From Ruegeria sp. SCSIO 43209 (GTDB lineage Bacteria > Pseudomonadota > Alphaproteobacteria > Rhodobacterales > Rhodobacteraceae), in contig NZ_CP065359.1 of NCBI RefSeq assembly GCF_019904295.1, forward strand, positions 3,093,501 to 3,157,500: DNA of 64,000 nucleotides, given 5' to 3'. Numbering within the stretch: position 1 is the stretch's first letter; each line of letters starts with the position of its first letter. Made by a program: the position numbers and the translations under genes. The notes under the pieces were generated by a model. It had not been told where the DNA came from. It saw nothing but the letters and a program-made list of their open reading frames with translations, and searched no databases. This document shows positions 43,026 to 59,819 of the stretch, piece by piece.

Positions 43026-44155
43026 CGAAACATTGGTGGCCGGGCATCCATCCACGCGCTGCCCTGTTTCGCCGACTCGACCGCTGTATGCACAGCCGCC
43101 ATCGACCGCACGCCGTCTGCCGCATTGGGCAAGCCGTCGCGGGTTTCCCCGGCAATAGCATCTGCGAGATCGCAATAGATATTCGCAACCGCCAACGGGA
43201 ACCCTTCGGGATGCGCAATCGCCACCCGGCTGAGTCGTTGCGCGTCTTCATGCAGCCCGCCTTCGCCTTTTTCTATGATCTGCAGGCGACCACCAACAGG
43301 CGTGTAGATAAGCTGGTTCGGCTGCTCCGACGCCCATCGAAGACCGCCGGTTTCTCCGAACACCTGAATGTCGAACCCGTGCTGCCGACCGATGGCGACC
43401 GAAGAGGTCCACAACCGGCCAACAGCGCCTTTTGTCGTGCGGAAGTTGACCATGGCATCATCTTCAAGTTCACGGCTGCCAATGGTTGAAGCAAAATCTG
43501 CAGACAGGGTCTCAACCTCATCATCCGCAATGAATCCGGCCATGTGCATCGCGTGGATACCGCAATCAGCGAACTGCCCGGAAACACCCGCCATCGCAGG
43601 ATCATAGCGCCAGCGCACGCGTGGATTGTCAGCATCGGTGGCGTCTCCGTGATGGCCGTGACTGAAATTGGTAACGACCAGACGGACTTTGCCGATCTCA
43701 CCTGCGCGCACCATCGCGCGAGCCTGACGCACCATCGGATAAGCCGAGTAACAGTAGTTTACCGCGCAAATCTTTCCTGATTTCTCGGCGACTTTGACAA
43801 TCTCTTCGCCCTCTTCCACCGTCATGGTCATGGGCTTTTCGCATAGCACGTTGAACCCGGCCTCAAGATACGCTTTGGTGATCTCGAAATGCGTAGCATT
43901 TGGAGTGGCTACAGTGACCAGATCAATCCGATCCTCGCGCCCGCGCTCACCTTCCAGCATCTCGGTCCAGTCGCCGTAGGCTCGGTCTGCCGCGATACCC
44001 AATCGTTGGGCGTATTCGCGACCAATGTCAGGCCTGTGATCCAGCGCTCCGGCGGTGAATTGGAAATGCCCGTCCGCCAGCGCCCCCAACCGGTGCGCCG
44101 GTCCGATCTGGCTACCTTCGCCGCCTCCGATCATGCCCCATTTCAGCTTGGTCAT
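43022..44155 (-). CDS. Gfo/Idh/MocA family dehydrogenase
   Basis: A 377-residue NAD(P)-dependent oxidoreductase. ATG 44155 is preferred because AAGGAGG lies just upstream. The Rossmann motif is GMIGGGEGSQIG (residues 7-18), the EKP motif is LCEKPMTM near residue 103, and the C-terminal domain has CGIHAMHMAGF with the catalytic Asp/His pair. It is the third gene after an IolG-like dehydrogenase and IolE-like protein in one minus-strand unit, so it probably oxidises or epimerises an inositol stereoisomer. It overlaps the convergent lacI gene by 4 bases. Confidence 0.87.
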   Translation of the reverse strand: MTKLKWGMIGGGEGSQIGPAHRLGALADGHFQFTAGALDHRPDIGREYAQRLGIAADRAYGDWTEMLEGERGREDRIDLVTVATPNATHFEITKAYLEAGFNVLCEKPMTMTVEEGEEIVKVAEKSGKICAVNYCYSAYPMVRQARAMVRAGEIGKVRLVVTNFSHGHHGDATDADNPRVRWRYDPAMAGVSGQFADCGIHAMHMAGFIADDEVETLSADFASTIGSRELEDDAMVNFRTTKGAVGRLWTSSVAIGRQHGFDIQVFGETGGLRWASEQPNQLIYTPVGGRLQIIEKGEGGLHEDAQRLSRVAIAHPEGFPLAVANIYCDLADAIAGETRDGLPNAADGVRSMAAVHTAVESAKQGSAWMDARPPMFR

Positions 44156-44168
44156 GGTCTGGACCTCC

Positions 44169-45062
44169 TTAACTGAAACCAATTGATTCAAGGTATTCAC
44201 GATTCTTCCGCGCGTCCCCTACAGGATCAGGGTCGAGCGTTGGGTCGCAATCCTGCTCGACCGTGCACCATCCTGTGAAACCTGCGTCCAGCAGCACCTG
44301 GCGAACGGTTGGAAAGTCTACGTCGCCTTCACCCAGATTGCAGAAAATCCCCTGCCCGCAAGCATCATAGAAGCCCGTCCGATTGGCAATTACATCCGCT
44401 TTCACTGTCGGAGAGATATCCTTGAAGTGCATGTACGAGATCCGATCAACGTAGCGCTTCATGAAGCCGACCGGATCGAACCCGGCATAAGAGTGATGCC
44501 CCGTATCGAAGCAAATTTTAAGAAGGCTTTCATCGACCTCGTCCAGCAAACGGATAAGTTCAGGTTCAAAGTCCATGAAGCCCGCAGCATGAGCGTGCAT
44601 CCCAACGGTCAGCCCGTATTCCTCGGACCCGATCCGCGCGCTTTCAGAAATCCGATCCCGGAACGCCGTCCACTCGGCCTTGTCCATCTGCTCAGCCTCA
44701 TCGGCGCGACCAGCGGTTGGCGCGCGGCGGGGTGAGATCGCATCGATCAGCACCATGTGCTGCGCCCCATGCGCTTTCAATGCGCGAGCGGTGCGGTGGG
44801 TGGCGTCCAGCACGTCTTCCCACGCGTCGGGGTCGTGATAGTTGCGGAACACAACGCCGCCGATCAGTTCAAGATCATGCTCGGCCAGCGCATCGGCCAG
44901 CACCGCAGGGTCTTCGGGCATGAAACCCACCGGGCCGAGTTCGATACCCTTATACCCGGCCACAGCGCATTCGCTGAGAACTGTTTTCCAATGCGGATTG
45001 CGCGGGTCCTGCGCAAATTCCACGCCCCAGGAACAGGGCGCATTGCCAATTCTGATGCTCAT
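44169..45062 (-). CDS. iolE: IolE-like sugar phosphate isomerase/epimerase (inosose dehydratase)
   Basis: A 297-residue TIM barrel. The N-terminus IRIGNAPCSWGVEF (residues 3-16) is the IolE hallmark, and metal-binding residues are visible in MHAHAAGFMDFEPE, CFDTGHHSYAG and YMHFKDI. IolE dehydrates scyllo-inosose to diketo-inositol in the second step of myo-inositol breakdown; an IolI-type inosose isomerase is the alternative. The ATG at 45062 has GGAG about 10 bases upstream; longer frames run into the neighbouring dehydrogenase. It lies between two Gfo/Idh genes. Confidence 0.82.
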   Translation of the reverse strand: MSIRIGNAPCSWGVEFAQDPRNPHWKTVLSECAVAGYKGIELGPVGFMPEDPAVLADALAEHDLELIGGVVFRNYHDPDAWEDVLDATHRTARALKAHGAQHMVLIDAISPRRAPTAGRADEAEQMDKAEWTAFRDRISESARIGSEEYGLTVGMHAHAAGFMDFEPELIRLLDEVDESLLKICFDTGHHSYAGFDPVGFMKRYVDRISYMHFKDISPTVKADVIANRTGFYDACGQGIFCNLGEGDVDFPTVRQVLLDAGFTGWCTVEQDCDPTLDPDPVGDARKNREYLESIGFS

Positions 45063-45081
45063 CTTGTCTTGTCTCCGATGC

Positions 45082-46185
45082 TCAGAAATCTTCGATATTT
45101 TTCCAGCTTTCATCCGCTGACGATGCCAATGCCGCAGCGACGACCCGGTTGACCTCATGCCCGTCGTGGAAGGTCGGCCAAACCGGTTTACCTGTCTCGA
45201 TTGCACGCAAAAAATCGCGTGCTTCGATGATTATCTGGTCCTGATAGCCCGTGCCATGGCCAGGGCCCTGACAGAACGGCTCATAGTCCGGGTGTGCGGG
45301 GCCGGTCAGGATCTTACGAAAGCCACGCTCAGCTTCGGGACCCTCCATACGGTAGAGCCACAAAACGTTCTGGTCTTCCTGATCAAAGCGGATCGCACCC
45401 TTGGTGCCACTGATCTCATAGGCATAGCCCATCTTGCGCCCCGTCGCGATTCGACTGATATAGATCGATCCCATTGCTCCGTTCGCGAACCGCACCATCA
45501 TCTGAGCATGGTCGTCATTGTCAACTTCGCCACCCGGGCGGCTATTGTGCACGGTTTCGACCTCGGCCATCACGCGTGAAATCGGGCCGATCAAAGCCAG
45601 TGCGGCATTGATCATATGAGGCGCAAGATCACCCATCGTTCCGTTCGACATTCCTGTTGTACGCCAGGTTGCCGGGGCTTGAGGGTGCGCGTAGAAATCT
45701 TCGGTATGCTCACCCCGAAACCATGTGATGTCGCCGATCTCTCCTTCGGCTATCAGAGCGCGAGCGTATTGGCTGGCCGGGGTGCGGATATAGTTGAAAC
45801 CAACCATGTTGGCCAAGCCCGAGGCCTCGGCCGCTGCTGACATCGCTGCACCATCTTCCAGAGACGCGCCCAAAGGCTTTTCACACAGCACCGGTTTGCC
45901 CAGCGCAAACGCTGCCTGAGCGATCTCGCGATGTGTTTCGGGAGGCGTGGCGATCACGACGGCCTCGACCTTCGGGTCGTTCACCAGCACACGCCAGTCA
46001 TCCGTCGAGCGCGCGAATCCATAGGCCTGACGATACCGCTCAGCGCTTTCCGGTGACGAGGCGCACACCATCTCTAACCGTGGTCGCAAGGCCGTGTTGA
46101 ACACTGCCCCAACCGAGGACATGGCGACCGCATGAGCCTTGCCCATATATCCGCCGCCTAGAATGCCAATGCCGATCTCTGCCAT
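45082..46185 (-). CDS. Gfo/Idh/MocA family dehydrogenase (first gene of the iolE unit)
   Basis: A 367-residue oxidoreductase with ATG at 46185 after GGGAGG. The cofactor motif is GILGGGYMGKAHAVAM (residues 7-22), the EKP motif is LCEKPLGA near residue 95, and the middle holds the AEVETVHNSRPGGEVDNDDHAQMMVRF stretch (core VDNDDHAQMMVRF). It is likely an inositol or scyllo-inositol dehydrogenase from the context. An 18-bp LacI operator is 35 bases upstream of the start, between this unit and iolD. Confidence 0.88.
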   Translation of the reverse strand: MAEIGIGILGGGYMGKAHAVAMSSVGAVFNTALRPRLEMVCASSPESAERYRQAYGFARSTDDWRVLVNDPKVEAVVIATPPETHREIAQAAFALGKPVLCEKPLGASLEDGAAMSAAAEASGLANMVGFNYIRTPASQYARALIAEGEIGDITWFRGEHTEDFYAHPQAPATWRTTGMSNGTMGDLAPHMINAALALIGPISRVMAEVETVHNSRPGGEVDNDDHAQMMVRFANGAMGSIYISRIATGRKMGYAYEISGTKGAIRFDQEDQNVLWLYRMEGPEAERGFRKILTGPAHPDYEPFCQGPGHGTGYQDQIIIEARDFLRAIETGKPVWPTFHDGHEVNRVVAAALASSADESWKNIEDF

Positions 46186-46219
46186 TCCGACGTCCTCCCT
46201 CGCTTTTTCTTGAAAACCA

Positions 46220-46237
46220 TTTGCAACCGGTTGCAAA
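46220..46237. promoter_or_regulatory. LacI-type operator (right copy)
   Basis: The same perfect palindrome TTTGCAACCGGTTGCAAA as at 41919-41936. It lies in the 129-base region between the divergent Gfo/Idh-iolE unit and the iolD operon, so one repressor can control both catabolic units together with the importer. Confidence 0.85.
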
Positions 46238-46314
46238 ACTTGTATCGTGAGAATAGGACTCTCGCAAGCTGCATTCGGCACTGCATCATAATTTTCCTAA
46301 AGGAGCCCGCAGAC

Positions 46315-48183
46315 ATGTCCGCGCAACACGACACTGTTTACCTGACAACAGCGCAGGCGATCATTCGCTGGCTGTCGAACCAGTTCATCGAGATCGACGG
46401 GCAAGAATATCGCTTATGTGGTGGTGGTTTCGGGATTTTTGGCCATGGCAACGTGACCTGCCTGGGTGAAGCCCTGAACACAGTGCGGGATGAGCTGCCG
46501 CTGTATCGTGGGCAGAACGAACAAAGCATGGGATTCGCCGCTTCGGGCTATGCCAAGCAATGGCTGCGTCAGCGATTCATGTTCTGCACTGCCAGCGCGG
46601 GACCGGGAACAGCGAATCTGCTGACAGCCGCCGGTCTGGCCCATGCCAACCGCCTGCCGATGCTGATGCTGTGCGGGGACACCTTCATCACCCGCTTGCC
46701 GGATCCGGTTTTACAGCAGATGGAGAATTTCAACGATCCAACCTTTGGCCTGAATGACGCGTTCAAGCCGGTCAGTCGGTATTGGGACCGCATCACCCAT
46801 CCGGCGCAGGTGATCCAATCGCTGCCCGCTGCCATTGCGACGATGCTGGATCCCGGCGATTGCGGCCCTGCGTTCCTCGGGTTGCCACAGGATGTTCAGG
46901 GCTGGACCTATGACTATCCGGTCAAGTTCTTCGAGAAGAAGGTGCATCGCATTCGCCGTCAAACACCCGATGCAGATGAGATTGCCGATGCGGCCGCTGC
47001 GCTGACCAGAGCGAAGCGTCCAATCATCATAGCGGGCGGTGGTGTGCAGTATTCGCAAGCCGTGGCTGAACTGACCGAATTCGCAGAGAGTCACCAGATT
47101 CCGGTGGTCGAAACCATCGCTGGCCGCGCCAATATGCTTGCGACTCATCCGCTGAATATCGGCCCGATTGGCGTGACCGGATCAGACAGCGCCAACGCGA
47201 TTGCGGAACAGGCCGATGTGATAGTTGCCATTGGAACCCGGCTGCAGGATTTCACGACAGGATCATGGACAGCCTTTTCCAAGGACGCCCAGTTCATCTC
47301 GATTAACGCCGCGCGACATGATGCGGGCAAGCATATGTCATTGCCGGTTGTCGGGGATGCTAAACTGTCAATTCAGGCTCTAACACAGGCGATTGATTAC
47401 TCTGCGCCATCCGATTGGGTATCTCTGGCGCAGGACGAACGGCGTAAATGGGATGCCTATGTGGCCGAGAATGTCGCGTACGGGAACCGTCCTAGTTCTT
47501 ACGCGCAAGCCATCGGCGTTGTGAACGAGCTTTGCGACCCGCGCGACCGTCTGATCGCCGCTGCCGGAGGTTTGCCCGCCGAGGTCACTGCCAATTGGCG
47601 CACCCTGGATATCGGCACAGTCGATGTCGAGTTTGGCTTTTCCTGCATGGGCTATGAGATCGCAGGCGCTTGGGGCGCGCGCATTGCCCAATCTGAGCGT
47701 GAGCCGGATAAGGACACGATTACCTTCTGCGGTGATGGCTCATATCTGATGCTGAACTCGGACATCTATTCCTCGGTTCTGAGCCGTAAGAAGATGATTG
47801 TTCTGGTGCTGGACAATGGCGGTTTTGCAGTCATCAACAAGCTGCAGAACAACACAGGCAACGAAAGCTTCAACAACCTGCTGGAAGACTGCCCCACCAT
47901 CCCCGAAGCCTTTGGCGTTGATTTCGCGGCCCACGCGGCCTCGATGGGGGCCACCAGCGAAAAGGTCGCGAACCCGGCAGAACTGGCCGAAGCGTTCAAG
48001 CGCGCCAAGGCCAGTGACAAGACTTATGTGATTGTGATGGACGTGGACGCCTATGAAGGCTGGACCACTGAAGGCCATGCATGGTGGGAGGTTGGAACAC
48101 CCCACACTTCGGCTGACGAGAAGGTTCGTGATGCCCATGTCGAATGGGAATCGACCCGCGAAAAACAACGCAAGGGCATCTGA
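46315..48183 (+). CDS. iolD: 3D-(3,5/4)-trihydroxycyclohexane-1,2-dione acylhydrolase IolD
   Basis: Thiamine-diphosphate enzyme that opens the cyclohexanedione ring to 5-deoxyglucuronate. The 622-residue protein starts at an ATG after AAAGGAG. The essential Glu is in GQNEQSMGFAASGYAK near residue 70, the central domain has the FAD/NAD-like region near 260, and the thiamine motif is FCGDGSYLMLN near residue 475 with LVLDNGGFAVINKL. It is the first gene of a six-gene operon with the dioxygenase, iolC-like, iolB, aldolase and iolG genes. Its stop overlaps the next start as TGATG. Confidence 0.93.
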   Translation: MSAQHDTVYLTTAQAIIRWLSNQFIEIDGQEYRLCGGGFGIFGHGNVTCLGEALNTVRDELPLYRGQNEQSMGFAASGYAKQWLRQRFMFCTASAGPGTANLLTAAGLAHANRLPMLMLCGDTFITRLPDPVLQQMENFNDPTFGLNDAFKPVSRYWDRITHPAQVIQSLPAAIATMLDPGDCGPAFLGLPQDVQGWTYDYPVKFFEKKVHRIRRQTPDADEIADAAAALTRAKRPIIIAGGGVQYSQAVAELTEFAESHQIPVVETIAGRANMLATHPLNIGPIGVTGSDSANAIAEQADVIVAIGTRLQDFTTGSWTAFSKDAQFISINAARHDAGKHMSLPVVGDAKLSIQALTQAIDYSAPSDWVSLAQDERRKWDAYVAENVAYGNRPSSYAQAIGVVNELCDPRDRLIAAAGGLPAEVTANWRTLDIGTVDVEFGFSCMGYEIAGAWGARIAQSEREPDKDTITFCGDGSYLMLNSDIYSSVLSRKKMIVLVLDNGGFAVINKLQNNTGNESFNNLLEDCPTIPEAFGVDFAAHAASMGATSEKVANPAELAEAFKRAKASDKTYVIVMDVDAYEGWTTEGHAWWEVGTPHTSADEKVRDAHVEWESTREKQRKGI

Positions 48184-49022
48184 TGAAACGGTTCAAGGCA
48201 GAAACGGCTGACCCAGACGTCATTGTGGATGAATTGCTGAACGGTGATGGAGTCGTCGCAATCTCGGGCCTTTTCACCCCTGAAGAGATCGCCGAGGCAC
48301 GTGCCATCGTCATGGCCGAATCCGAAACAGCGGCCGAGAAAGTGACCCATTTCCAAGGCGCTGCGGAAGAGGATGGCAAACTGAACCTGCAGCGGCGGGT
48401 CTGGAATCTGTTGGCTAAGGGCGACGTGTTTTCACGCATGGCTGCGCATCCGGTTCTGATGAAGATCCTCCGCAAGTTTCTGGGGACCGAGTTCATCATG
48501 GGCTCGATCGCTGCTAATCGCATCCTGCCGGGCGGGCCGGGGCAGGAGCCGCATGTCGACTATCCCTATTGGGACTTTCACAACCCCGAAACGCATCCCG
48601 TGGGTCTCAATGGATCGTTTCCGATGAACGCGCAGGTCTCGATTTTGCTGGACCCATTCACCAAGGAAAGCGGCGCGACCGGATATGTACCCGGATCGCA
48701 GAAAGAGCTGCGTTATCCCACGCCCGAAGACAAGTTCTATGACAAATTCGAGCAGATGACCGGTGAGCCTGGTGATGTTGCTCTGTTCTATGGCGTGACA
48801 TGGCATTGCGCGATGCCCAACAAAGCGGATCACGACCGCAGCGCGATCCTGATCCAGTACCTGCCCAAATGGGTTAAACCAATGGAAGATATGCCTGCTG
48901 CTCTGACGCAGGATTTCCTTGATCAGGCAAGTCCCGATCTGCGGCAGTTGCTGGGCCTGAACTATCCCTACCCCGAGGTGCTGGATGCCGCGCGGGCAGG
49001 CAATACCGAGGGGCGCACGTGA
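48183..49022 (+). CDS. Phytanoyl-CoA dioxygenase family (Fe(II)/2-oxoglutarate) protein
   Basis: A 279-residue oxygenase of the PhyH family inside the inositol operon. The iron facial triad is visible: His124 and Asp126 in QEPHVDYPYW and His208 in YGVTWHCAM, with Arg219 (DHDRSAI) for 2-oxoglutarate. It is translationally coupled to iolD and to the kinase gene (GTGA overlap). It is not part of the classical myo-inositol pathway, so it may hydroxylate or demethylate a modified inositol; that is inference from neighbourhood. Confidence 0.85.
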   Translation: MKRFKAETADPDVIVDELLNGDGVVAISGLFTPEEIAEARAIVMAESETAAEKVTHFQGAAEEDGKLNLQRRVWNLLAKGDVFSRMAAHPVLMKILRKFLGTEFIMGSIAANRILPGGPGQEPHVDYPYWDFHNPETHPVGLNGSFPMNAQVSILLDPFTKESGATGYVPGSQKELRYPTPEDKFYDKFEQMTGEPGDVALFYGVTWHCAMPNKADHDRSAILIQYLPKWVKPMEDMPAALTQDFLDQASPDLRQLLGLNYPYPEVLDAARAGNTEGRT

Positions 49023-49996
49023 CTCTGATCGAAGGTATAAAAGGTAACCGCTTTGCCGTGTTCGGCAGGGCCGGAATGGACATGTTTGCGGATCCGGTCG
49101 GAACCAAAAGCGAAGACGCACAAGTGTTTCGCGCCGATCTGGGCGGATCAAGCGCCAATATCTGCGCCGGACTGGTGAAGCTGGGATCGCAAGCGGCGCT
49201 GGTCACCTCGGTCTCGGATGATGCCGTGGGGCGGTTCTGTGTGAACCGGCTGCGGGACTATGGCGTTGAAACGAGATATGTCCGAGCTGTGGGTGGCGAG
49301 GCGCGTACGTCCTTGGCTGTCTACGAAAGTTGCATTGAAGACTTTCAGAATGTCATCTACCGCAACGGCGCCGCTGATTTCCAGGTAACCGAGGCGGATA
49401 TGGATGAGGTCGACTACAGCGCCTTCTCAGCCCTGATCACGGCGGGCACGGTGTTTGCTGCGGAACCCTCACGCTCGGCCACCTTCCGCGCGTTTGAAAA
49501 TGCGCGCGCCTCAGGCCTGCCGGTGATTTTCGACATCGATTACCGCCCCTATAGTTGGCCATCACCCGAAGTCGCCTCAGAGGTTCTGACCCGCGCAGGG
49601 AATGAAAGCGATCTGATCGTAGGCAATGATGAAGAGTTCGGCTTTATGGCGGGCGGCATCGAAAAAGGTTTAGACAAGGCCCGCGAATTGGCGGCCAACG
49701 GCAAGATGGTGATCTACAAGATGGGCCATGAGGGGGCCATTACGCTGGCAGACGGGCAAGAGGTCCGCACCGGCATCTACCCGGTTACCGCCGTGAAGCC
49801 CAACGGCGCAGGCGACAGTTTTCTGGCCGGTCTGCTGGCCTCGATCGCTGCGGGGCATGACCTGCGCGATGCGGTGCTGCGCGGTTCGGCCTGCGCGTCG
49901 ATCGTCGTGTCGAAACCCGGCTGCGCCGGGGCCATGCCGACGACGCCCGAACTTGACGAATTTCTGGCCCAACACCCGGGCTCCACGGATACCTGA
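49019..49996 (+). CDS. iolC: PfkB family kinase, 5-dehydro-2-deoxygluconokinase-like (IolC)
   Basis: A 325-residue ribokinase-fold kinase. The N-terminal GGSSANICAGLVKLG (residues 42-56) and the catalytic-base/anion-hole motif NGAGDSFLAG near residue 262 are intact. In the inositol pathway IolC phosphorylates 2-deoxy-5-keto-gluconate. Many proteobacterial IolC proteins are fused to a DUF2090 aldolase-like domain; this one is not, and a separate class II aldolase gene lies two genes downstream. It begins with GTG overlapping the oxygenase stop. Confidence 0.85.
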   Translation: MTLIEGIKGNRFAVFGRAGMDMFADPVGTKSEDAQVFRADLGGSSANICAGLVKLGSQAALVTSVSDDAVGRFCVNRLRDYGVETRYVRAVGGEARTSLAVYESCIEDFQNVIYRNGAADFQVTEADMDEVDYSAFSALITAGTVFAAEPSRSATFRAFENARASGLPVIFDIDYRPYSWPSPEVASEVLTRAGNESDLIVGNDEEFGFMAGGIEKGLDKARELAANGKMVIYKMGHEGAITLADGQEVRTGIYPVTAVKPNGAGDSFLAGLLASIAAGHDLRDAVLRGSACASIVVSKPGCAGAMPTTPELDEFLAQHPGSTDT

Positions 49997-50008
49997 AAGG
50001 AGACGCAG

Positions 50009-50866
50009 ATGCATATTGCGCCCCATGACAACCAGAACAAACCTATCGTCGATGCCGACCATGATCTGGTGCCGCTAAACTATTTCAACATCGTCAAACT
50101 GAAAAAGGGCGAGGTGTTCGAATATGCCGTACCGGGCTATGAGACCTGCATCGTGCCCGCTACCGGTACCGTGGATGTCGATGTGGACGGCGCGATCTAT
50201 ACCAACCTTGGCAACCGCACCATCGACGTCTGGGATGGCGAGCCCGAGGGCGTATACGTTCCCGTCGGCGCCAAGGTTCGAATAACCTGCATGACGGATG
50301 AAACCGAAACCTTCATCGCGGGCGCAAAATTCGACCGTGTGCTTGAACCCTTTGATGTCCGCGTACCCGAGCTGGATCTGGTGCAGTATGGATCGGACGA
50401 CACCAAAACCCATCGAAAGATCAAACACATTCTGGGCGCGAACCATCACGACAAGGTCGGCCGCTTGCTGGTGTCTGAACTTTATACCGTGGGTCAGGGC
50501 GGCTGGTCCGGCTTTCCCAGCCACAAACATGACACCGACCGCAAAAGCGACGATGGCGAAATGATCGAAACCCGCCATGACGAAACCTATAATTTCCGCT
50601 TCCGGCCCAACTATGGTTCTGGCGTCCAGATGCTGCAGCGCGAAGACAACAAGCCGGGTGATGCCTATCACATCATGGATGGCTCGACGATCCTGCTGGA
50701 CAAGGGCTATCACCCCTGCGCAGTTTTGCCGGGTTATGAAATGTACTATTTCACCATCCTCGGCGGGCTCAGTCAGCGCTCGCTGAAGCAGTATTTCCAA
50801 CCGACCCATGCAGCCCAGCTGCATACGATCCCGGGCATTATGGACATGGTGGCCAAGTTCAAATGA
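50009..50866 (+). CDS. iolB: 5-deoxy-glucuronate isomerase IolB
   Basis: Converts 5-deoxyglucuronate to 2-deoxy-5-keto-gluconate. The 285-residue protein is a bicupin: metal-binding segments GFPSHKHDTD near residue 171 and ETYNFRF, and the C-terminal DKGYHPCAVLPGYEMYYFTILGG (core GYHPCAVLPGYEMYYF) are diagnostic. The start follows AAAGGAG by a good distance, 12 bases after the kinase stop. It overlaps the aldolase gene by 4 bases (ATGA). Confidence 0.94.
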   Translation: MHIAPHDNQNKPIVDADHDLVPLNYFNIVKLKKGEVFEYAVPGYETCIVPATGTVDVDVDGAIYTNLGNRTIDVWDGEPEGVYVPVGAKVRITCMTDETETFIAGAKFDRVLEPFDVRVPELDLVQYGSDDTKTHRKIKHILGANHHDKVGRLLVSELYTVGQGGWSGFPSHKHDTDRKSDDGEMIETRHDETYNFRFRPNYGSGVQMLQREDNKPGDAYHIMDGSTILLDKGYHPCAVLPGYEMYYFTILGGLSQRSLKQYFQPTHAAQLHTIPGIMDMVAKFK

Positions 50867-51693
50867 GCCTTGTGACATTATCGGACGTGCTGCAACCCGC
50901 GCTGCGCGACGGCTATGCCCTGGCCGGGTTGGTGACGCTGGGCTGGGAGGAAATGCGTGCCTACGTGGCCGCTGCCGAAGCCGAAGGCGTACCGATCATC
51001 CTGCAAGCCGGCCCATCATGCCGCGAACACACGCCGCTGCCGGTTCTGGGCAAGATGTTCCGCCATCTGGCCGAATGTGCCAGCGTGCCCGTCGTGGCGC
51101 ATCTGGACCATGGCTACACCCATGACGAATGCCACATCGCCATCGACAGCGGCTTTACCTCGGTCATGTTTGACGGATCGCGCAAGCCTTTGGAACAGAA
51201 TATCGCCGAGACCGCTGCAATTGCCGAGATGGCCCATGCCGCTGGTGTCTCCTGCGAGGGGGAAATCGGTTTTGTCGGCTATTCGGGTGGTGAAGGTTCG
51301 GACGGAACCGACCCGGCGGAAGCCGCGCAATTCGCCCGAGAGACCGGCGTGGATGCAATGGCGATCTCGGTCGGCAACGTCCACTTGCAGCAGAACAAAG
51401 AGGGCGGTCTGGACGAGACCCGTATCCGCGCCATCGAAGCCGTGACCGAGATACCTCTGGTGATCCATGGCGGCTCGGGCGTGCCGGTTGCGCAACGTGC
51501 TGCGCTGGCGCGCGGATCGAAAATCTGCAAATTTAACATCGGGACCGAGCTGCGAATGGCCTTTGGGAATGCCCTGCGAACGGCCGTGAATGCCGATCCG
51601 GACAGGTTCGACCGCGTTCAAATACTGAAAGATACACATGAACCGGTGGTCGAGGCGACGCGCCGAGTACTGAAAGCGTTCAAAGGGGCATGA
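50863..51693 (+). CDS. iolJ: Class II aldolase, IolJ-like (6-phospho-5-dehydro-2-deoxygluconate aldolase)
   Basis: A 276-residue class II fructose-bisphosphate aldolase family protein. The zinc-binding HLDHGYT segment near residue 84, the SVMFDGSRKPLEQNI phosphate region, the CEGEIGFVG motif with Glu near residue 132, and VIHGGSGVP near residue 202 are present. From the operon it most likely splits the phosphorylated keto-deoxygluconate to malonate semialdehyde and dihydroxyacetone phosphate. Malonate semialdehyde would then need IolA, which is not in the window. Confidence 0.88.
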   Translation: MSLVTLSDVLQPALRDGYALAGLVTLGWEEMRAYVAAAEAEGVPIILQAGPSCREHTPLPVLGKMFRHLAECASVPVVAHLDHGYTHDECHIAIDSGFTSVMFDGSRKPLEQNIAETAAIAEMAHAAGVSCEGEIGFVGYSGGEGSDGTDPAEAAQFARETGVDAMAISVGNVHLQQNKEGGLDETRIRAIEAVTEIPLVIHGGSGVPVAQRAALARGSKICKFNIGTELRMAFGNALRTAVNADPDRFDRVQILKDTHEPVVEATRRVLKAFKGA

Positions 51694-51694
51694 C

Positions 51695-52684
51695 ATGCTG
51701 AATATTGGGCTATTGGGATGCGGGCGGATCGGTCAGGTTCATGCGCGCTCGATCGGGCAGATTGATGGCGCACGGGTGAGCGCAGTGGCGGACGCATTCA
51801 CAGAACCGGCTCAGATGCTGGCCGACAAAACTGGCGCACAGATCCTGTCGGCGGACGAACTGATCGAAAGCAAAGATGTCGATGCTGTCGTCATCGGTAC
51901 TCCGACCGACACCCACTACGATCTGATCCATAAAGCGGCGAATGCCGGCAAAGCGATCTTCTGCGAAAAGCCGGTGGACATGTCCGCTGACCGCATCCGC
52001 GACTGCATCAAGGTGGTCGAAGCCACCGGCGTGCCCTTCATGACGGCCTTCAACCGCCGCTTTGATCCGAGCTTTGCCAATATTCAATCCCGCATCGCCG
52101 AAGGTGAGATCGGCGCGGTCGAAATTGTCACCATTCTGTCCCGCGACCCCTCGCCGCCACCGATCAGCTATATCGAAAGCTCGGGTGGGTTGTTCCGCGA
52201 TATGATGATCCATGACTTGGATATGGCACGTTTCTTGCTGGGCGAAGAACCTATCAGCGTTTACGCTGTTGGATCATCGCTCGTCGATCCCGAGATCGGC
52301 AAAGCCGGAGACGTCGACACCGCAGCCGTAACCCTGACGACGGCCAGTGGCAAGATTTGCCAGATCTCCAACTCGCGCCGCGCCAGCTATGGCTATGATC
52401 AGCGCATTGAAGTGCATGGCGAGAAGGGCATGTTGCGGGCTGAAAACATGTTGGAGAATGCGGTTGAGGTCGCGACTCCGTCGGGTTTCCGCAAAGCCCC
52501 CGCCCAGCATTTCTTTCTTGAACGCTACGAAGGCGCCTATCAAGCTGAGATGGCCCATTTCACTGCCGCTGTGTCCGGATCAGGACAACTTGCACCAGGT
52601 ATCATCGATGGGCTGCGGGCTCAGTTGCTGGCCGATGCGGCGGACGCGTCCTTGAAGCAGGGCACCGTTATCAGCCTCGTTTGA
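51695..52684 (+). CDS. iolG: Inositol 2-dehydrogenase IolG
   Basis: Oxidises myo-inositol to scyllo-inosose with NAD. The 329-residue protein has the Rossmann motif GLLGCGRIGQVHA (residues 5-17), the EKP motif FCEKPVDM near residue 91, and the substrate-domain stretch FMTAFNRRFDPSF with GLFRDMMIHDLDMA (catalytic Asp and His, near residues 166-178). It closes the operon, 1 base after the aldolase stop. A 7-bp hairpin (52712-52735) lies 28 bases after its stop. Confidence 0.94.
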   Translation: MLNIGLLGCGRIGQVHARSIGQIDGARVSAVADAFTEPAQMLADKTGAQILSADELIESKDVDAVVIGTPTDTHYDLIHKAANAGKAIFCEKPVDMSADRIRDCIKVVEATGVPFMTAFNRRFDPSFANIQSRIAEGEIGAVEIVTILSRDPSPPPISYIESSGGLFRDMMIHDLDMARFLLGEEPISVYAVGSSLVDPEIGKAGDVDTAAVTLTTASGKICQISNSRRASYGYDQRIEVHGEKGMLRAENMLENAVEVATPSGFRKAPAQHFFLERYEGAYQAEMAHFTAAVSGSGQLAPGIIDGLRAQLLADAADASLKQGTVISLV

Positions 52685-52711
52685 GGTTTTTGGGAAATCA
52701 TCGAGGTTCAA

Positions 52712-52735
52712 GGTACGACGCGCCAAACTCGTACC
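52712..52735 (+). terminator. Hairpin after the inositol operon
   Basis: GGTACGA pairs perfectly with TCGTACC around a 10-base loop, 28 bases after iolG. It lacks a T-run, so it may mark a factor-dependent end or only a stabilising stem. Confidence 0.4.
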
Positions 52736-52918
52736 CCCTCAAGAAATCATCAGACATCTTCTAGGCGCGCCGTATCGTTTTGGTATCTGGGCGAGATGTC
52801 CGGAATGTGTCTGAAAGATTAATTTTCCCAACTACGGGGAACCCCCAATATACGGGCCTACACGCATCGCATAACCTGAGCTCAACGGACCACTTTCACT
52901 GTTCCGTGTATCCCCTTC

Positions 52919-54819: not shown

Positions 54820-57072
54820 TTGAGGTCAAGATATGGGGTAGACCAGACAAAGTTTTCCAAGACTAAAACTCCCGAAGCCCGCCTAATGGCCATCGTGTTC
54901 ATTGATGCATGTGGGTACTCGTTAGCGGTTCGCGAAACTGAAATGCGAACCCTATCCACTATTCGCGCGGATCTGAATTTAGCCAGTGAAGTAGTGGTCG
55001 CTCTTGGAGGTGAAGTCACGGGTATTGCTGGTGATGGTTTTTGCGCGACATTCAGAAGTGTTTCAGTCGCGGTAGAAGCCTCGTTGAGGGTACAGGAAAC
55101 TCTTTCTGAACAAGTCGGAAACTATGATCGCGGGTTCAGGATCGGTGTACATGTTGGTGATACATTTGAAATAGACCGCCAAATCATAGGGAATACCGTA
55201 AACACCGCGGCCCGTATCGAAAGTGCTGGATCGGCCGGTGATGTCCTGGTCTCCAGTGCGGTCCGAAATTCGCTTCAGGGTGGAAACGACTTTCGGTTTG
55301 TCTCCATCGGCTACCCAACACTAAAAAATCTGGGAAACTCTCTCGAGTTATTCAAGGTGATCAGAGTTTCGGACCAAGGGTCGCTGACAAAGGCCCGTCT
55401 CGAATTGATTGGGTATCCGAAGTATTGGGGCTCCCAAAACACTTTGCTGGACCTAAGCAACGAGCAGACAATGCTTCTCTCGCTCTTAGCTTGCTCTCAA
55501 GGTGTTTTTTCAGCGCATCGGGCTGGCGAAATTATTTGGGAGGACCAGTCTACTTCTGAAAGGTCTGCTTTATTGGAGCGGCTCGTCGACGCCACCAATG
55601 AACACACCGGTTTGGCAACCCTAATCAGTCTAGTTCGCGACAAAGATCTCATTTACCTCAATCAACAAGAGTTGGAAATAGACGTAACAGAGCCAACAGC
55701 AGAACCATCAAACAATAGGCTGTTGGAGGGTTTCAAATGCCGCAGTGCTGCTTTCATGGATTGGCTCCAGCATCAACGGTCTGCGGTTCGATGCATCAAC
55801 CAAGATGGTGCTAGTCTAGTAAGTAAAACCGATCTCACAACTCAGCCAACGCCTAATGCATCATGGGTAGAAACTACGAGAACAAATTTCGTAATTGGCC
55901 TTCTAGCCTCAGATGTGGGAGCGGGATCGGAAAAAGCCTCTTTCGTAGCAAATATCGTCGCAGAGCAGCTATCAAAATCTCTTTCGGAAACCGAGGCCCT
56001 GATTGTTCAGGACTATCGCACCCCGAACGTGCCCGGGCCATACAACTCCAGCCCCAGCCACGGTGTTGGTCCCGACTTGTTTCTTCAGTGCAGAGCGTCA
56101 GCCTGCGAAAGCATGCTTCAAGTTTCTGTCACTGCAATGCGCCCCGAGGACCGGAAAGTTATTTGGAATCAGAATGTGGTGGCTGATCAGGGCGACTTTC
56201 TTGGGCTCTCGACCTCCAGCGTTGCAGCTTTTGTAAGCTACGCTACCGATGCGCTCCTCACGGCATTGGTGAATGGGCGTCATATGCGAGACCCCGCTGC
56301 CCATCATGCTGCAAAGACGGCGATCTCAGCAGTCCATCACTTGCTAACAATGTCCGGACCCGGTTTGGACCATTTGCAGGCAGACATATTGGCGGCCTAC
56401 GAAATCGACCCCAAGCCTGTTTACTTGGCCTGGCTAGCATATTTTACGACGTTCCAAATCGGCGAACGTTACGGAACGTGGGACATTGAGCTTGAAGAAA
56501 GAGCACGAGAGCTAGCGAGGCGAGCAGTCGAAGCTGACGCAGATAACGGGACCGTTTTAGGGCTTGTCGCTCACGTCTATTCCTACGTGTTCCGCGAGTT
56601 TTCGATTGCTCAGGACCTTTCTGACAGAGCCCTGGAGCTGAGCCCATATCGTGCAATGTGTTGGGATTCTGCTGCGATGCTCTATTGCTATACCGATCGT
56701 CCGAGGCTTGCAGTGGAGGCCGCGAACAAAGCTAGGGTTATCGGACGGCACAGCCCTTATCGTCATCTATTCGACGGCGCAAGCTGCGTAGCTTCGTTGG
56801 TAAATGGCGACTTCGAACAAGCCGTCAAATTTGGCGAAAACGTAATGGCGGTACAACCACAGTTTAAAGCAGTTATGCGCTATCTGGCGGCATCTTACGG
56901 TCACTTGGGCGATCACACCAAAGGTGAGAAAGCGTTACATCGACTTGTCGAATTGGAGCCAGACATGTCTCTCACAAGTATTCGAGAAGACTGGTTTCCG
57001 GTTCCAACCCGCTTCAGCGCAAAACTTATGGAGGATGGTCTGAGCCGTATCGGGCTGCCAAAACAAATTTAG
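54820..57072 (+). CDS. Class III nucleotide cyclase with winged-helix and TPR regions
   Basis: A cytoplasmic protein of up to 750 residues. Parts in order: a class III cyclase domain (about 23-185) with both metal Asp (D29 in VFIDACGYS, D72 in IAGDGF) and the catalytic Asn128/Arg132 pair (NTVNTAAR); a SARP/OmpR-like winged helix (about 200-290, TMLLSLLACSQGVFS and LIYLNQQELEIDV); a FlgO/TolB-amino-like region (about 355-480); and TPR-type helices to the end. The residues that normally select adenine (Lys before GDG, and Asp before the VN motif) are Gly68 and Gln121, so the substrate may not be ATP. The start is uncertain: TTG at 54820 or ATG at 54886. First gene of an AT-rich three-gene operon. 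Confidence 0.85.
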   Translation: MRSRYGVDQTKFSKTKTPEARLMAIVFIDACGYSLAVRETEMRTLSTIRADLNLASEVVVALGGEVTGIAGDGFCATFRSVSVAVEASLRVQETLSEQVGNYDRGFRIGVHVGDTFEIDRQIIGNTVNTAARIESAGSAGDVLVSSAVRNSLQGGNDFRFVSIGYPTLKNLGNSLELFKVIRVSDQGSLTKARLELIGYPKYWGSQNTLLDLSNEQTMLLSLLACSQGVFSAHRAGEIIWEDQSTSERSALLERLVDATNEHTGLATLISLVRDKDLIYLNQQELEIDVTEPTAEPSNNRLLEGFKCRSAAFMDWLQHQRSAVRCINQDGASLVSKTDLTTQPTPNASWVETTRTNFVIGLLASDVGAGSEKASFVANIVAEQLSKSLSETEALIVQDYRTPNVPGPYNSSPSHGVGPDLFLQCRASACESMLQVSVTAMRPEDRKVIWNQNVVADQGDFLGLSTSSVAAFVSYATDALLTALVNGRHMRDPAAHHAAKTAISAVHHLLTMSGPGLDHLQADILAAYEIDPKPVYLAWLAYFTTFQIGERYGTWDIELEERARELARRAVEADADNGTVLGLVAHVYSYVFREFSIAQDLSDRALELSPYRAMCWDSAAMLYCYTDRPRLAVEAANKARVIGRHSPYRHLFDGASCVASLVNGDFEQAVKFGENVMAVQPQFKAVMRYLAASYGHLGDHTKGEKALHRLVELEPDMSLTSIREDWFPVPTRFSAKLMEDGLSRIGLPKQI

Positions 57073-57098
57073 TATTTCGATCAAGGGAGGGGGATTCA

Positions 57099-58250
57099 TT
57101 GAATTACGTTAGTTTTCTCAACAACTTCGGTATGCTCGTTCGGCGTGGGGAATTGATTTCGTGTAAAGTTTTAAAGCTGGCGAACTTGGGCGCAGAGGAC
57201 AATCCTGAGCGAAATAGGGATGAACTTGTATCGCTAATCTATGACGAACAGCAGCAAACATTCTGGGCGTACATCAATGCGATTCGTGAGATCAAGGACG
57301 ACATAATTGATGATCCAACACTTGAAAAATTGAATTTGTTTTTTGATGAGATGACTCTGGTAGATCGTCTTCAGCGGAACGAACAAGTAGCTAATTCGGT
57401 TGCCACAGAAATTGGAAGCCGGTCTGCACTCGGAGCCGCTGTAATCGCGATGGGTCAGTCTTCATCCTTTGCCCTGAACCGCAACAGAAATAGAAACCGC
57501 AATAGAAACAGGAATCGAAATAGAAACAGAAATAGGAATCGAAATAGAAACAGAAACCGCACTGAGTTCGATTTCGGTGGGAGCGATGCCTCATTTGGGT
57601 GGCGCGAAATGCGTGATCTCTGTAAAATTGGCATTCCTATTGATACAAGTATTCTCGGGAAAATCTGGGAGAATATTGATCTTCTACCACCTCCAGGACC
57701 CGATGAAAGCCTGAACGAAACCACTCATCTGCTGGAACTTCAGGAGCAACTGAAACAGCCAGATCAAGTGCGCCGTCGCGACGAAATTGTTGCGCAAGCG
57801 CAGTTCGGAATTGACGATTACCTGACCCCTTTAGGGATTGACGAGCAGGGCGGATTTGATGCGACGAAGGCCTTGATGGTCATCCTGCTGGAAATCACCA
57901 ACGAGATCGGCCTTACTTACAAGAATAGGTTCAGCCGACCTCGACCAAACATCGTGCAGCCGCTTATCCGTCCTTACATCCCCGTACCCTATCACGCTGC
58001 ATATCCATCCAACCATTCTTATCAATCATTCGCGATTGCAGAGCTGTTCTCTCGGCTGGTTCCAGAGCATCCGGGAACGATAGCGCTTTTCCATCGCGCC
58101 CAGCGTATTGCCGAGAACCGAGAATGGGCAGGTCTACACTACCCAAGTGATACAGCTGCAGGACGCAGTCTCGCAAAGAAAACAGTGGTTTATCTAACAG
58201 AAGCTCTCGATGAACTGATGGATGAAGCCCAGGACGAATGGCTGGGATAG
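57099..58250 (+). CDS. PAP2 / vanadium-haloperoxidase-fold protein with Asn-Arg repeat
   Basis: A 383-residue protein starting at TTG 57099 (GGGAGG upstream), 26 bases after the cyclase. The C-terminal part (about 250-365) has the full PAP2 signature: Lys275 with RP in KNRFSRPRP, PSNH with His306, and NR(x5)H(x3)D with Arg341, His347 and Asp351. Such residues bind phosphate or vanadate. The N-terminal part (1-126) is not recognised. Between them lie 14 consecutive Asn-Arg pairs (residues 127-154). No signal peptide or membrane segment is evident, so it appears cytoplasmic. It could be a phosphatase or a haloperoxidase; acid phosphatase activity on a nucleotide signal is speculative. Confidence 0.82.
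   Translation: MNYVSFLNNFGMLVRRGELISCKVLKLANLGAEDNPERNRDELVSLIYDEQQQTFWAYINAIREIKDDIIDDPTLEKLNLFFDEMTLVDRLQRNEQVANSVATEIGSRSALGAAVIAMGQSSSFALNRNRNRNRNRNRNRNRNRNRNRNRNRNRTEFDFGGSDASFGWREMRDLCKIGIPIDTSILGKIWENIDLLPPPGPDESLNETTHLLELQEQLKQPDQVRRRDEIVAQAQFGIDDYLTPLGIDEQGGFDATKALMVILLEITNEIGLTYKNRFSRPRPNIVQPLIRPYIPVPYHAAYPSNHSYQSFAIAELFSRLVPEHPGTIALFHRAQRIAENREWAGLHYPSDTAAGRSLAKKTVVYLTEALDELMDEAQDEWLG
57477..57560 (+). repeat. Tandem Asn-Arg coding repeat (14 units)
   Basis: 84 bases encode 14 Asn-Arg pairs in the PAP2-like gene. Asn uses AAC and AAT; Arg uses CGC, CGA, AGA and AGG, so the units are not identical. An 18-base block (AATCGAAATAGAAACAGA) occurs twice, 24 bases apart, showing a longer repeat layer. 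Length change would be in steps of 6 bases and would keep the frame. Confidence 0.95.
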
Positions 58251-58271
58251 CTACAAAGGGGAGGTGAGCCA

Positions 58272-59819
58272 ATGCCTGTTGGCGATGAGTTATATAAACG
58301 TTACTACTATCTTTGGCATCTGGTGGCGATCAATGCGATTTCCGTACCAACTGGCACCTCATCTGGTGAGGTTTGCCCGACGATAACTGGTGTCGAATGG
58401 GATTTTGCAGGACGGGATGTAAAAATTGGCCTCATTGATATGGGGGTGGCCCGGCATCATCCAAACTTAGAAGCGCCAGAGGCCCCCCTTCCCCCTCCAG
58501 ATCAAGTTATTTGGAATGACGCAATTGATCTAGCGAGCCACCCGTATGGAGCAAAGTACGAGGAGTTATCGGCATATCCTGCAGCAAACAGACACCGCGA
58601 GCTACCAGAACAACATTTGACCGGAATCAGCGCTTTGGTCATACCTGGTCTCGACCCCGAAGAAACCGAGATAATTAACAGAATTAGTAACGGTTTTGGC
58701 GTCAAGCGTTACGTCGATGCCTATGATGATCGGTATGCCGCTCACGGGACTGGATGCGCTGGCCTGACGAGCGGTACCAGTTATGAATTGGATCAGTTCG
58801 GCAATGCGGGTAATGTTGCCCCTTACTTTGGCGTAGACCCGCTAAGCAAAGTAGTTCCTATCACAACTTCAATATCTCCTAGCCCTGAAGAACTGATAGC
58901 GGCCTTTCTTTATGCAGAAGCGAAAGGTGTGGATGTCATTCTATTTCCGCGCGATGCCGCTGACCCTTCGTATTGGCCCGGCTATCCAACCTCTTTTGAC
59001 GATGATGAAGAGACCCGCCTTCATAAAAGCAAGGCGGGAGAAGTTCATGAAGATATTTTGGACATCCAAAAATCCTGGGCTCTACTTGAGAAAGTCATAG
59101 AATGGGTAAGCAAGCAGACGCCTGTTGTATGCGCCGCAGGTAATGAGGGCAGGAGTGAACTGATTTACCCGGCTAGTTTGTCATCCAATCCCGCAAACGG
59201 TGTCATTTCAGTAGGCGCCGTCAATTACAACGGCTACCGATCGGGTTATTCCAACTACTCGGGTGATCTGACCGTAGTCGCACCTTCAGATGACGGAGAA
59301 GTATATAACAGATACCAAATCCGATTGGACCGTCGCGCTGCTTCAGCAGGCGACTTCTGGGTAGAGAACGTGCACAAAAAGCGCGAACCACCTTATGATG
59401 ATATCCCTGAAATTTCATTTGCCTCACAACGGTTACTTTCCTTGGATGTTCCAGGACCGAGGGGCTACGTGGAAGGAACATTCGCTGGCCCTGTGAAGAA
59501 ACGAGAAAGTGCGCGCGACGATCCTTCGGGATTATATGCTGAATTTGGAGGCACATCGGGTGCTGCTGCCTTGGTCGCCGGAGCAATCGCGATGATGCAG
59601 CGCAAGTCGACTTCAAAGGTGTCAGGTGTTGACGTCAAGAACATTTTCGAAGGTTTTTCGGCTGATACCAATAAACTAAATCTAGACCACTGGTATTGGT
59701 TAGATGCAGGGTCATCTTTGCAGCCAGATGCCATGAACTCATATACAACACCGAGCACAGATGAGCTTTTTGGGCAAGCAGGACTATTGGACGTCGCAAA
59801 ACTACTTTTACAGGTTTGA
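58272..59819 (+). CDS. S8 family (subtilisin-like) serine peptidase, cytoplasmic
   Basis: A 515-residue subtilase with no signal peptide. Catalytic residues are in place: Asp56 (IGLIDMGVA, Thr replaced by Met), His158 (AAHGTGCAG), oxyanion Asn291 (AAGNEG) and Ser429 (GGTSGAAALVAG, the usual Pro replaced). About 100 residues separate Asp and His and about 125 lie between Asn and Ser, longer than in simple subtilisins, so two insertions are present. It follows the PAP2-like gene by 21 bases with a GGGGAGG ribosome site and appears co-transcribed with the cyclase and PAP2 genes. The substrate is unknown. Confidence 0.87.
   Translation: MPVGDELYKRYYYLWHLVAINAISVPTGTSSGEVCPTITGVEWDFAGRDVKIGLIDMGVARHHPNLEAPEAPLPPPDQVIWNDAIDLASHPYGAKYEELSAYPAANRHRELPEQHLTGISALVIPGLDPEETEIINRISNGFGVKRYVDAYDDRYAAHGTGCAGLTSGTSYELDQFGNAGNVAPYFGVDPLSKVVPITTSISPSPEELIAAFLYAEAKGVDVILFPRDAADPSYWPGYPTSFDDDEETRLHKSKAGEVHEDILDIQKSWALLEKVIEWVSKQTPVVCAAGNEGRSELIYPASLSSNPANGVISVGAVNYNGYRSGYSNYSGDLTVVAPSDDGEVYNRYQIRLDRRAASAGDFWVENVHKKREPPYDDIPEISFASQRLLSLDVPGPRGYVEGTFAGPVKKRESARDDPSGLYAEFGGTSGAAALVAGAIAMMQRKSTSKVSGVDVKNIFEGFSADTNKLNLDHWYWLDAGSSLQPDAMNSYTTPSTDELFGQAGLLDVAKLLLQV

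Follow-up and report, generated by a model that had tools for sequence, protein, structure and literature searches.

A conserved bacterial gene trio in which the repeat tail of a PAP2 enzyme covaries with a tetratricopeptide-repeat regulator

Introduction

RRNPP(A) receptors are cytosolic tetratricopeptide repeat (TPR) proteins with an N-terminal output domain, and their variable cognate peptide is encoded alongside. In Alphaproteobacteria, regulators composed of a SARP or winged-helix part, a TolB-like part and TPRs are a general type. In a 64,000-nucleotide stretch of the Ruegeria sp. SCSIO 43209 genome (contig NZ_CP065359.1, positions 3,093,501 to 3,157,500; hereafter called the window), a regulator of this domain order, REG, is encoded together with a PAP2 enzyme bearing a tandem-repeat tail and a subtilase of peptidase family S8. 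Here we analyse this trio and its homologues, starting from a first-pass annotation of the window that had taken the genes for a system organised around the class III nucleotide cyclase domain of REG.

The branch to which REG belongs is tied to a tailed PAP2 protein and a peptidase. The module resembles the RRNPP(A) receptors in having a TPR protein with an N-terminal output domain and an adjacent variable peptide. However, their ligand is a secreted short pro-peptide, while here it would be the tandem-repeat tail on an enzyme, and the SARP-like or cyclase N-terminus, the occurrence in Pseudomonadota and the linked peptidase also set the module apart. The PAP2 protein shares its fold and catalytic motifs with the class A acid phosphatases (PhoN/PhoC, 7f17) and the vanadium haloperoxidases. 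Unlike the class A enzymes, it has no evident leader, carries a repeat tail and is linked to a TPR regulator, and PSNH replaces their PSGH in 80 of 188 module PAP2 proteins. The Pycsar systems are similar in their class III cyclase domain, and the PADLOC model of PycC matches REG weakly (1.5e-5, domain-level similarity only). They differ in that no cyclic-nucleotide effector (PycTIR/PycTM sensor) was found in the second or third gene of the trio, in which the cyclase is dispensable and no defence neighbourhood was seen. Finally, the study of de novo superhelical-matching binders (Wu et al. 2023, PMC10115654) reports designed helical-repeat proteins able to recognise tripeptide repeats one unit at a time. 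These binders, like natural armadillo repeats bound to a nuclear localization signal, share with the module a repeat protein that reads, or here would read, a repeating peptide unit-wise; the module is natural, TPR-based as we infer it, and comprises about 64 units in 121 loci.

Results

Conservation of the gene trio

The three open reading frames (ORFs) lie on the + strand of the window with gaps of 26 and 21 bases, exactly as first annotated. They encode REG (54820-57072; 750 residues, TTG start), the PAP2 protein (57099-58250; 383 residues, TTG start) and the S8 subtilase (58272-59819; 515 residues, ATG start), with Pfam matches to Guanylate_cyc (1.3e-6), PAP2 (1.2e-8) and Peptidase_S8 (1.4e-17), respectively. 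The proposal that the trio forms a system, as opposed to a chance arrangement of genes, is borne out by its homologues, as the order regulator–PAP2–S8 on one strand is kept in 77 of 80 homologous loci and the remaining three are cut by contig ends. These 80 are the best of 153 confirmed relatives, obtained by scanning genome contigs with the PAP2 family. Far from being almost never adjacent in other genomes, the observation named beforehand as speaking against a system, the homologous genes adjoin. The trio is also retained by more distant relatives on Phaeobacter and Paracoccus plasmids, with one or two genes inverted in Paracoccus albus and Paracoccus sp. AK26, and REG and PAP2 adjoin even when they lie on opposite strands, as in 30 of 121 dereplicated loci.

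Regions for the wider set were picked by hand, mostly from the strongest matches; loci and genomes are cited below by L and G numbers. Entry to a set of 188 loci required a regulator longer than 430 residues and a repeat score of 8 or more; this excludes L006 and L074 (short NK runs) and L165 (a remote protein). A set of 204 loci left out the short loci L083-L102 and L111-L140, which overlap with members of the set, as well as L109, and the dereplication to 121 loci removed the same records reached twice (L002/L236, L039/L141). A typed peptidase lies within 5 kb in 185 of the 188 loci (S8A 82, S8long 80, HExxH 10, S8up 8 and G1 5); the other three are L012 and L196, at contig edges, and L150. 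Since the peptidase types were defined from these same loci, this count describes the set and does not test it independently. Three proteins make up the core of the module: the TPR regulator, the PAP2 enzyme and the peptidase.

In a whole-genome search by broad alignment, relatives occurred in 131 of 341 Rhodobacterales genomes, 38 of 347 genomes of a second order of the same class and 34 of 398 genomes across the phylum. All three counts are upper bounds, as PAP2 relatives that lack a tail can also exceed the threshold. Regulator, tail and S8 are all present in two loci outside the class (L238, L239). The module is apparently widespread in bacteria and apparently undescribed: literature searches, with many subscription journals outside their reach, gave no paper on the trio or on TPR recognition of such tails among the matches listed, and we know of no description of either. 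Its components are of known kinds, while neither the module nor the relation between tail and TPRs is. In ten genomes with two fetched systems (G013, G022, G158, G174, G416, G685, G942, G1013, G1235 and G1270), the repeat unit differs between the two, as is expected anyway given so many units; G685 includes the doubtful L150.

The repeat tail of the PAP2 protein

The key feature of the locus turned out to be one that the first-pass annotation had not mentioned. In addition to a class-A-acid-phosphatase-like domain, the PAP2 protein of the window has a tandem-repeat tail, (Asn-Arg)14, at residues 127-154 (57477-57560, + strand), encoded by mixed synonymous codons. In the predicted structure, the predicted local distance difference test (pLDDT) score is below 50 for residues 106-163, about 60 in the N-terminal part that precedes them, and mostly above 95 in the PAP2 domain that follows. 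The catalytic motifs K275-x6-R282-P283, P303-S-N-H306 and R341-x5-H347-x3-D351 (57921-58151, + strand) are invariant or nearly so in two family alignments, and the pattern K-x6-RP / PSxH / R-x5-H-x3-D is found in 183 of the 188 family members. The nearest PDB structure to the PAP2 domain is the acid phosphatase 7f17 (31% identity, template-modelling score 0.77 by target length), followed by PhoC/PhoN and, more weakly, by vanadium peroxidases. No hydrophobic leader is evident on reading the N-terminus.

The tails of close relatives consist of NK, NR or variants. Those of distant relatives are built from NSF, NGK, NAE, NAD, NAY, NAQ, NAR, GGA, GGF, GGV, GGH, SGV, SAY, TAM, DAL, DAR, GNT, TGPG, GGGH, GL/GM and other units. 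A script counted 64 units in the 121 dereplicated loci, a few of which differ only in their assigned period (AGG/AGGAGG, the GL/GM family), and the units are rich in Gly, Ala, Asn and Ser. Tail and regulator go together: among 207 PAP2-profile hits, 192 are both regulator-linked and tailed, two are tailed but unlinked (both at contig edges), three are linked but below the repeat threshold (the two short NK runs and the remote L165), and ten are neither. Three of these ten, the second hits in L220, L244 and L249, are weak matches to ORFs also typed as S8long. Repeats of comparable strength occur in none of 197 regulators, in one of 204 peptidases and in 32 of 2609 other long ORFs, spurious ORFs included. 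The period-3 tails are at least 15 residues long, with a median of 27 (69 loci), a length that would suit at least five TPRs at one unit each.

Of the differences seen in 2967 codon comparisons between neighbouring units of the 121 tails, 1931 are synonymous and 60 non-synonymous, the latter count being biased low because the tails were delimited by amino-acid match. Moreover, neighbouring codons differ more than in a within-tail shuffle (0.662 versus 0.602; Wilcoxon p=4e-9), and codon alternation reaches at least its own 95th percentile in 42 of the 121 loci. Individual tails in which neighbouring units alternate their codons beyond chance include L228, L144 and L159. These patterns argue that the exact amino acids of the tail matter and that the tail is held by selection at the protein level, and repetition of the DNA itself seems to be avoided. 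An origin of the tail by recent DNA slippage was rejected, as the codons are scrambled. Where related loci have different units, every copy has changed (GGL-SGL-GGF, SGV-TGV, NAL-DAL, NAQ-NAR).

Covariation between the tail unit and the regulator

In an AlphaFold2 (AF2) model of REG, a cyclase fold is followed by a winged-helix-like segment and, at about residues 466-743 (56215-57048, + strand), by a series of helical hairpins. The PDB neighbours of the model include cyclases, consensus TPR superhelices and the TPR domain of OGT, and the helical run is accordingly assigned as a TPR superhelix; the Pfam TPR models score under their cut-offs in REG.

We compared the tail unit with each of the three proteins by partial Mantel tests. 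In 58 dereplicated period-3 S8long loci, the unit is associated with the regulator given S8 and PAP2 (r=0.186, p=0.0005) and not with S8 given the others (r=-0.057, p=0.91), while the association with the PAP2 domain is borderline (r=0.085, p=0.058). Within the regulator, the TPR half keeps the association (r=0.086, p=0.001 in 121 loci; r=0.137, p=0.002 in 65 S8long loci), and none was found for the N-terminal half in the same two sets (p=0.18 and p=0.69, respectively).

The covariation was also resolved by alignment column. In twelve of 499 regulator columns, z reaches about 4 or higher (at most 6.76, with a 95% null maximum of 4.22), and five of them are TPR contact positions recurring in successive TPRs. 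For S8, 4 of 524 columns have z>4, the best of which (4.55) is barely above the 95% null maximum of 4.43. The contact positions are those touched by the peptides in TPR co-crystals, namely 2, 5, 6, 9, 12 and 13, as given in PMC1261162, and the TPR register was set by the Pfam match to L105 and stepped by 34. The mean z is 1.44 at these six positions, compared with 0.05 at the other TPR positions; it is 0.07 for the remainder of the regulator, -0.10 for S8 and 0.02 for PAP2. Among the 34 rotations, the true register comes first in all six variants, with p between 0.0002 and 0.0028 against variability-matched columns. A signal concentrated at the contact positions is hard to explain by shared ancestry, because ancestry should affect all columns.

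Several observations weigh against the interpretation that the TPRs read the tail. The covariation effects are small to modest, and the Mantel permutations ignore phylogeny; of the two, the register comparison is the safer control. The PAP2 domain, which is on the same chain as the tail, is associated with the unit at r=0.148 versus 0.137 for the TPR half in the 65 S8long loci, and at 0.486 versus 0.086 in the 121 loci. Some of the twelve high-z columns lie outside the TPRs. An earlier contact-set run ranked 1, 2, 1 and 1 of 34, with rank 2 obtained for four TPRs, and an alternative, hypervariable position set reached only rank 4 of 34 (p=0.049). For pairs below 50% PAP2-domain identity, nearest neighbours in contact residues (0.431) have no advantage in predicting the unit over random TPR sets of equal size (0.412, standard deviation 0.026) or over all non-contact positions together (0.454). 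For pairs below 60% identity, the contact residues do have an advantage (0.540 versus 0.438, standard deviation 0.032). Charge complementarity between tail and regulator, also considered, was rejected: the overall rho of -0.50 is driven by the NR/NK clade, and falls to -0.24 (p=0.053) in S8long and to -0.16 (p=0.13) without S8A.

Single residues offer anecdotes, such as position 613 (L105 numbering), which is Arg with the units NAE and NAQ and Glu with NAR. In the NAQ/NAR pair, the regulators are the most diverged proteins (identity 0.47, versus 0.69 for both PAP2 and S8), which is what co-evolution would give, although the SGV/TGV pair, with a regulator identity of 0.89, shows no such divergence.

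The regulator and its cyclase domain

The domain order of REG in the window is a class III cyclase domain, a SARP-like winged helix, a TolB-like middle part and the TPR superhelix. The cyclase domain (residues 18-184; 54871-55371, + strand) was assigned by sequence and fold, from Pfam PF00211 and the PDB relatives 3mr7, Ma1120 and Rv1900c. The winged-helix segment (about residues 192-290; 55393-55689, + strand) was assigned from the AF2 secondary structure and from the RefSeq names of homologues (SARP family, winged helix); no Pfam model matches this segment of REG. The TolB_N model matched only the relative L163, and not REG itself. By eye, the cyclase has both metal-binding Asp residues and the Asn/Arg pair, and lacks the usual base-selecting Lys and Asp; these roles (metal, transition-state and base-selecting) are those we presume for the residues.

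With the cyclase sequence of the window as the only query, a cyclase was found in one of 78 fetched homologous regulators (L002), three of which are incomplete at that region (L005, L014, L033). An iterated profile found it in 46 of the 188 regulators, several of these domains being degenerate by eye. By peptidase type, it is present in all 5 loci with G1, all 10 with HExxH and all 8 with the divergent S8, in 19 of 80 with the long S8, and in 4 of 82 with the window-type S8, the window counted. Where the N-terminus of a regulator without a cyclase is named, a winged helix or SARP-like part is found there; REG of the window has both. The cyclase is thus an optional N-terminal module and the TPR half the constant part, and the cyclase was rejected as the core of the module. 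The first-pass annotation had supposed that the PAP2 protein and the protease respond to, or limit, a signal produced by the cyclase. Given the cyclase counts in both regulator sets, with none detected in 142 of the 188, this cannot be the general mechanism. The trio as a system stands, on the 77 of 80 loci, and the cyclase as its organising idea is not supported.

In one locus, L110 (5537-7514, Neorhizobium galegae pNgVX), the regulator is split into two overlapping ORFs, perhaps by a frameshift or as a pseudogene.

The linked peptidases

In the subtilase of the window, the triad D56/H158/S429, whose roles were assigned by motif, is invariant in the S8 family alignment, and no signal peptide is evident on reading. 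Among ten example peptidases, Pfam recognises S8 in five (L161 below the cut-off) and Peptidase_A4, which we take to be the glutamic peptidase family G1, in three. It has no match for the two HExxH proteins, which are labelled as peptidases by motif alone. To judge from these assignments, the peptidase is exchangeable between non-homologous families.

Broadly, NR/NK repeats occur with S8A, GNT-like repeats with G1, GL/GM with HExxH and DAR-like repeats with S8up. However, the S8long group alone contains 49 units in 80 loci, and the peptidase family therefore does not dictate the unit. A role of the tail as an array of P1 cleavage sites for the linked S8 was rejected for lack of protein-level covariation (r=-0.057, p=0.91). 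The HExxH proteins are large, 941-983 residues in the four measured (for example L163 489-3326 and L164 7902-10727), and are also found in the M-type loci L173, L175, L214, L221, L243, L245, L251 and L253. They are possibly an undescribed metallopeptidase family.

Genomic surroundings of the module

The copy in the window looks acquired, because its composition deviates, few genomes of the genus have a close PAP2 homologue, and similarity breaks off past the left neighbour. The G+C content is 0.497 over 54820-59819 and 0.582 over 44000-52684, which confirms the AT-richer DNA first described, and at third codon positions it is 0.445-0.501 in the trio versus 0.678-0.699 in three neighbouring genes. 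A close PAP2 homologue (E<1e-100) is present in 3 of 37 same-genus genomes, the window's own counted. Three same-genus genomes retain the left neighbour (82-84% identity), and their similarity ends at about window positions 52539-52826; blastn of the trio against about 11 kb taken from each of the three genomes gave no match. To the right lies the rrn operon already annotated (tRNA-Met, 5S and 23S, - strand).

The suggested link with anti-phage defence found no support in PADLOC, the flanking genes or phage records. PADLOC matched neither the PAP2 nor the S8 protein of the window. On 120 of 229 eligible flanking genes, it matched 11 families with one or two members each, among them TIR, PycC, mad3/mad8 and subtilase, counts that have no baseline. 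The 25 commonest of 93 Pfam families in the flanking genes are ordinary. The PAP2 protein of the window has no match in 50,697 phage records, and a phage-borne module was rejected on this ground and because no regulator was found beside six PAP2 hits in IMG/VR, which were not examined for repeats. These six viral contigs (L261-L266) encode large PAP2-domain proteins, five of which share an N-terminal PDTAFTS motif. The sole defence-like neighbour noticed in the annotated plasmid regions is a SIR2 family protein, encoded in L107 (10841-12025, Paracoccus sp. AK26 pAK3) two genes downstream from the peptidase. We consider a regulated phosphatase response inside the cell likelier than a role in defence.

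Other neighbours recur. In Rhizobiaceae loci such as L103 (11547-13933, Rhizobium johnstonii pRL12), the trio is followed by a HEXXH-motif putative peptide-modification protein (22 of 80 loci) and by a ThiF-type adenylyltransferase (20 of 80), which suggests that peptide modification is tied to some copies of the module. In Rhodobacterales loci such as L018 (4372-7547), the upstream set comprises a LuxR-type regulator (8 loci), a small protein whose N-terminal half is acidic (6) and another S8 protein (10), which by eye seems to have lost its active-site Ser motif in L008 and L013.

Discussion

How might the three proteins work together? We propose that the tail is read by the TPR superhelix, which docks the enzyme of its own module in this way, and that the peptidase acts on the complex, a model to which we give an even chance. 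The three proteins would probably be cytosolic. The C-terminal TPR superhelix of REG would recognise the disordered exact-repeat tail of the PAP2 enzyme, with roughly one unit per TPR, such that the groove holds its own enzyme and not that of a relative. The exchangeable N-terminus of REG, be it a winged helix, a cyclase or both, would convert the occupancy of the groove to an output, and the bound or free state would set transcription or, in some branches, cyclase activity. The swappable peptidase might then cut the enzyme or the complex and thereby reset or trigger the state. Many units would insulate parallel circuits from each other. The data show the conserved linkage, the protein-level selection on the tail and the covariation of its unit with the TPR contacts; physical binding, this geometry, the target of the peptidase and the output are the parts that we infer.

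A bolder form of this proposal, to which we lean somewhat less than evenly, is a natural modular peptide code. Here, TPR superhelices would read di-, tri- and tetrapeptide tails at about one unit per TPR, positions 2, 5, 6, 9, 12 and 13 would set the specificity, and paralogous and horizontally acquired circuits would be insulated in one cell.

Peptide signalling in the manner of the Gram-positive RRNPP systems is an improbable alternative, in which the tail is a multi-copy precursor from which the peptidase frees short peptides sensed by the TPR regulator. One locus indeed holds a TPR receptor, a peptidase and a hypervariable repeated peptide, and covariation of the unit with the TPR contacts is predicted equally well. 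However, the window proteins, read by eye, all seem to be cytosolic, the tail belongs to an enzyme whose catalytic motifs persist in nearly every family member (183 of 188), and a maturing peptidase should covary with the unit, which S8 does not.

We likewise regard as unlikely an armed effector, whose TPR sensor would release the peptidase to cut and activate a toxic PAP2 hydrolase, similar to the protease-activated effectors of bacterial immunity. The near-constant presence of a peptidase of one of several non-homologous kinds (S8, Peptidase_A4/G1, HExxH) is the pattern of an exchangeable activating protease, and the window copy is patchy and foreign-looking; against this stand the ordinary flanking genes, the lack of PADLOC matches for PAP2 or S8, and a tail that does not covary with S8.

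It is doubtful, too, that the tail is a low-complexity spacer or multimeriser read by no sequence-specific partner, with the TPR covariation a by-product of shared ancestry. The low pLDDT of the tail, its Gly/Ala/Asn/Ser-rich units, the covariation of the PAP2 domain with the tail and the loss of power of the tests at low identity would all agree with a spacer. Exact units despite scrambled codons would not, and the signal lies at the contact positions, not elsewhere in the same TPRs, and is best in the true register. Finally, a cyclase whose cyclic nucleotide the PAP2 protein and the protease respond to or limit is very improbable, even though the window cyclase keeps its presumed metal-binding and transition-state residues by eye and cyclases recur in 46 of the 188 regulators, since the other regulators have none detected and winged-helix or SARP-like N-termini where named, several cyclases look degenerate, and neither the PAP2 nor the S8 protein of the window was found to contain a domain that binds cyclic nucleotides.

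If the TPR superhelix does read the tail, the module would supply a large natural data set, about 64 units in 121 loci, on how repeat proteins read repeating peptides, which is otherwise a problem of protein design. The way in which all repeat copies change together while their codons stay scrambled would become a testable evolutionary puzzle. Scattered annotations in rhizobia and roseobacters, such as SARP regulator, PAP2 phosphatase and S8 peptidase, would unite as one system, and this system would be a new three-part bacterial control circuit, present in up to 131 of the 341 sampled Rhodobacterales genomes.

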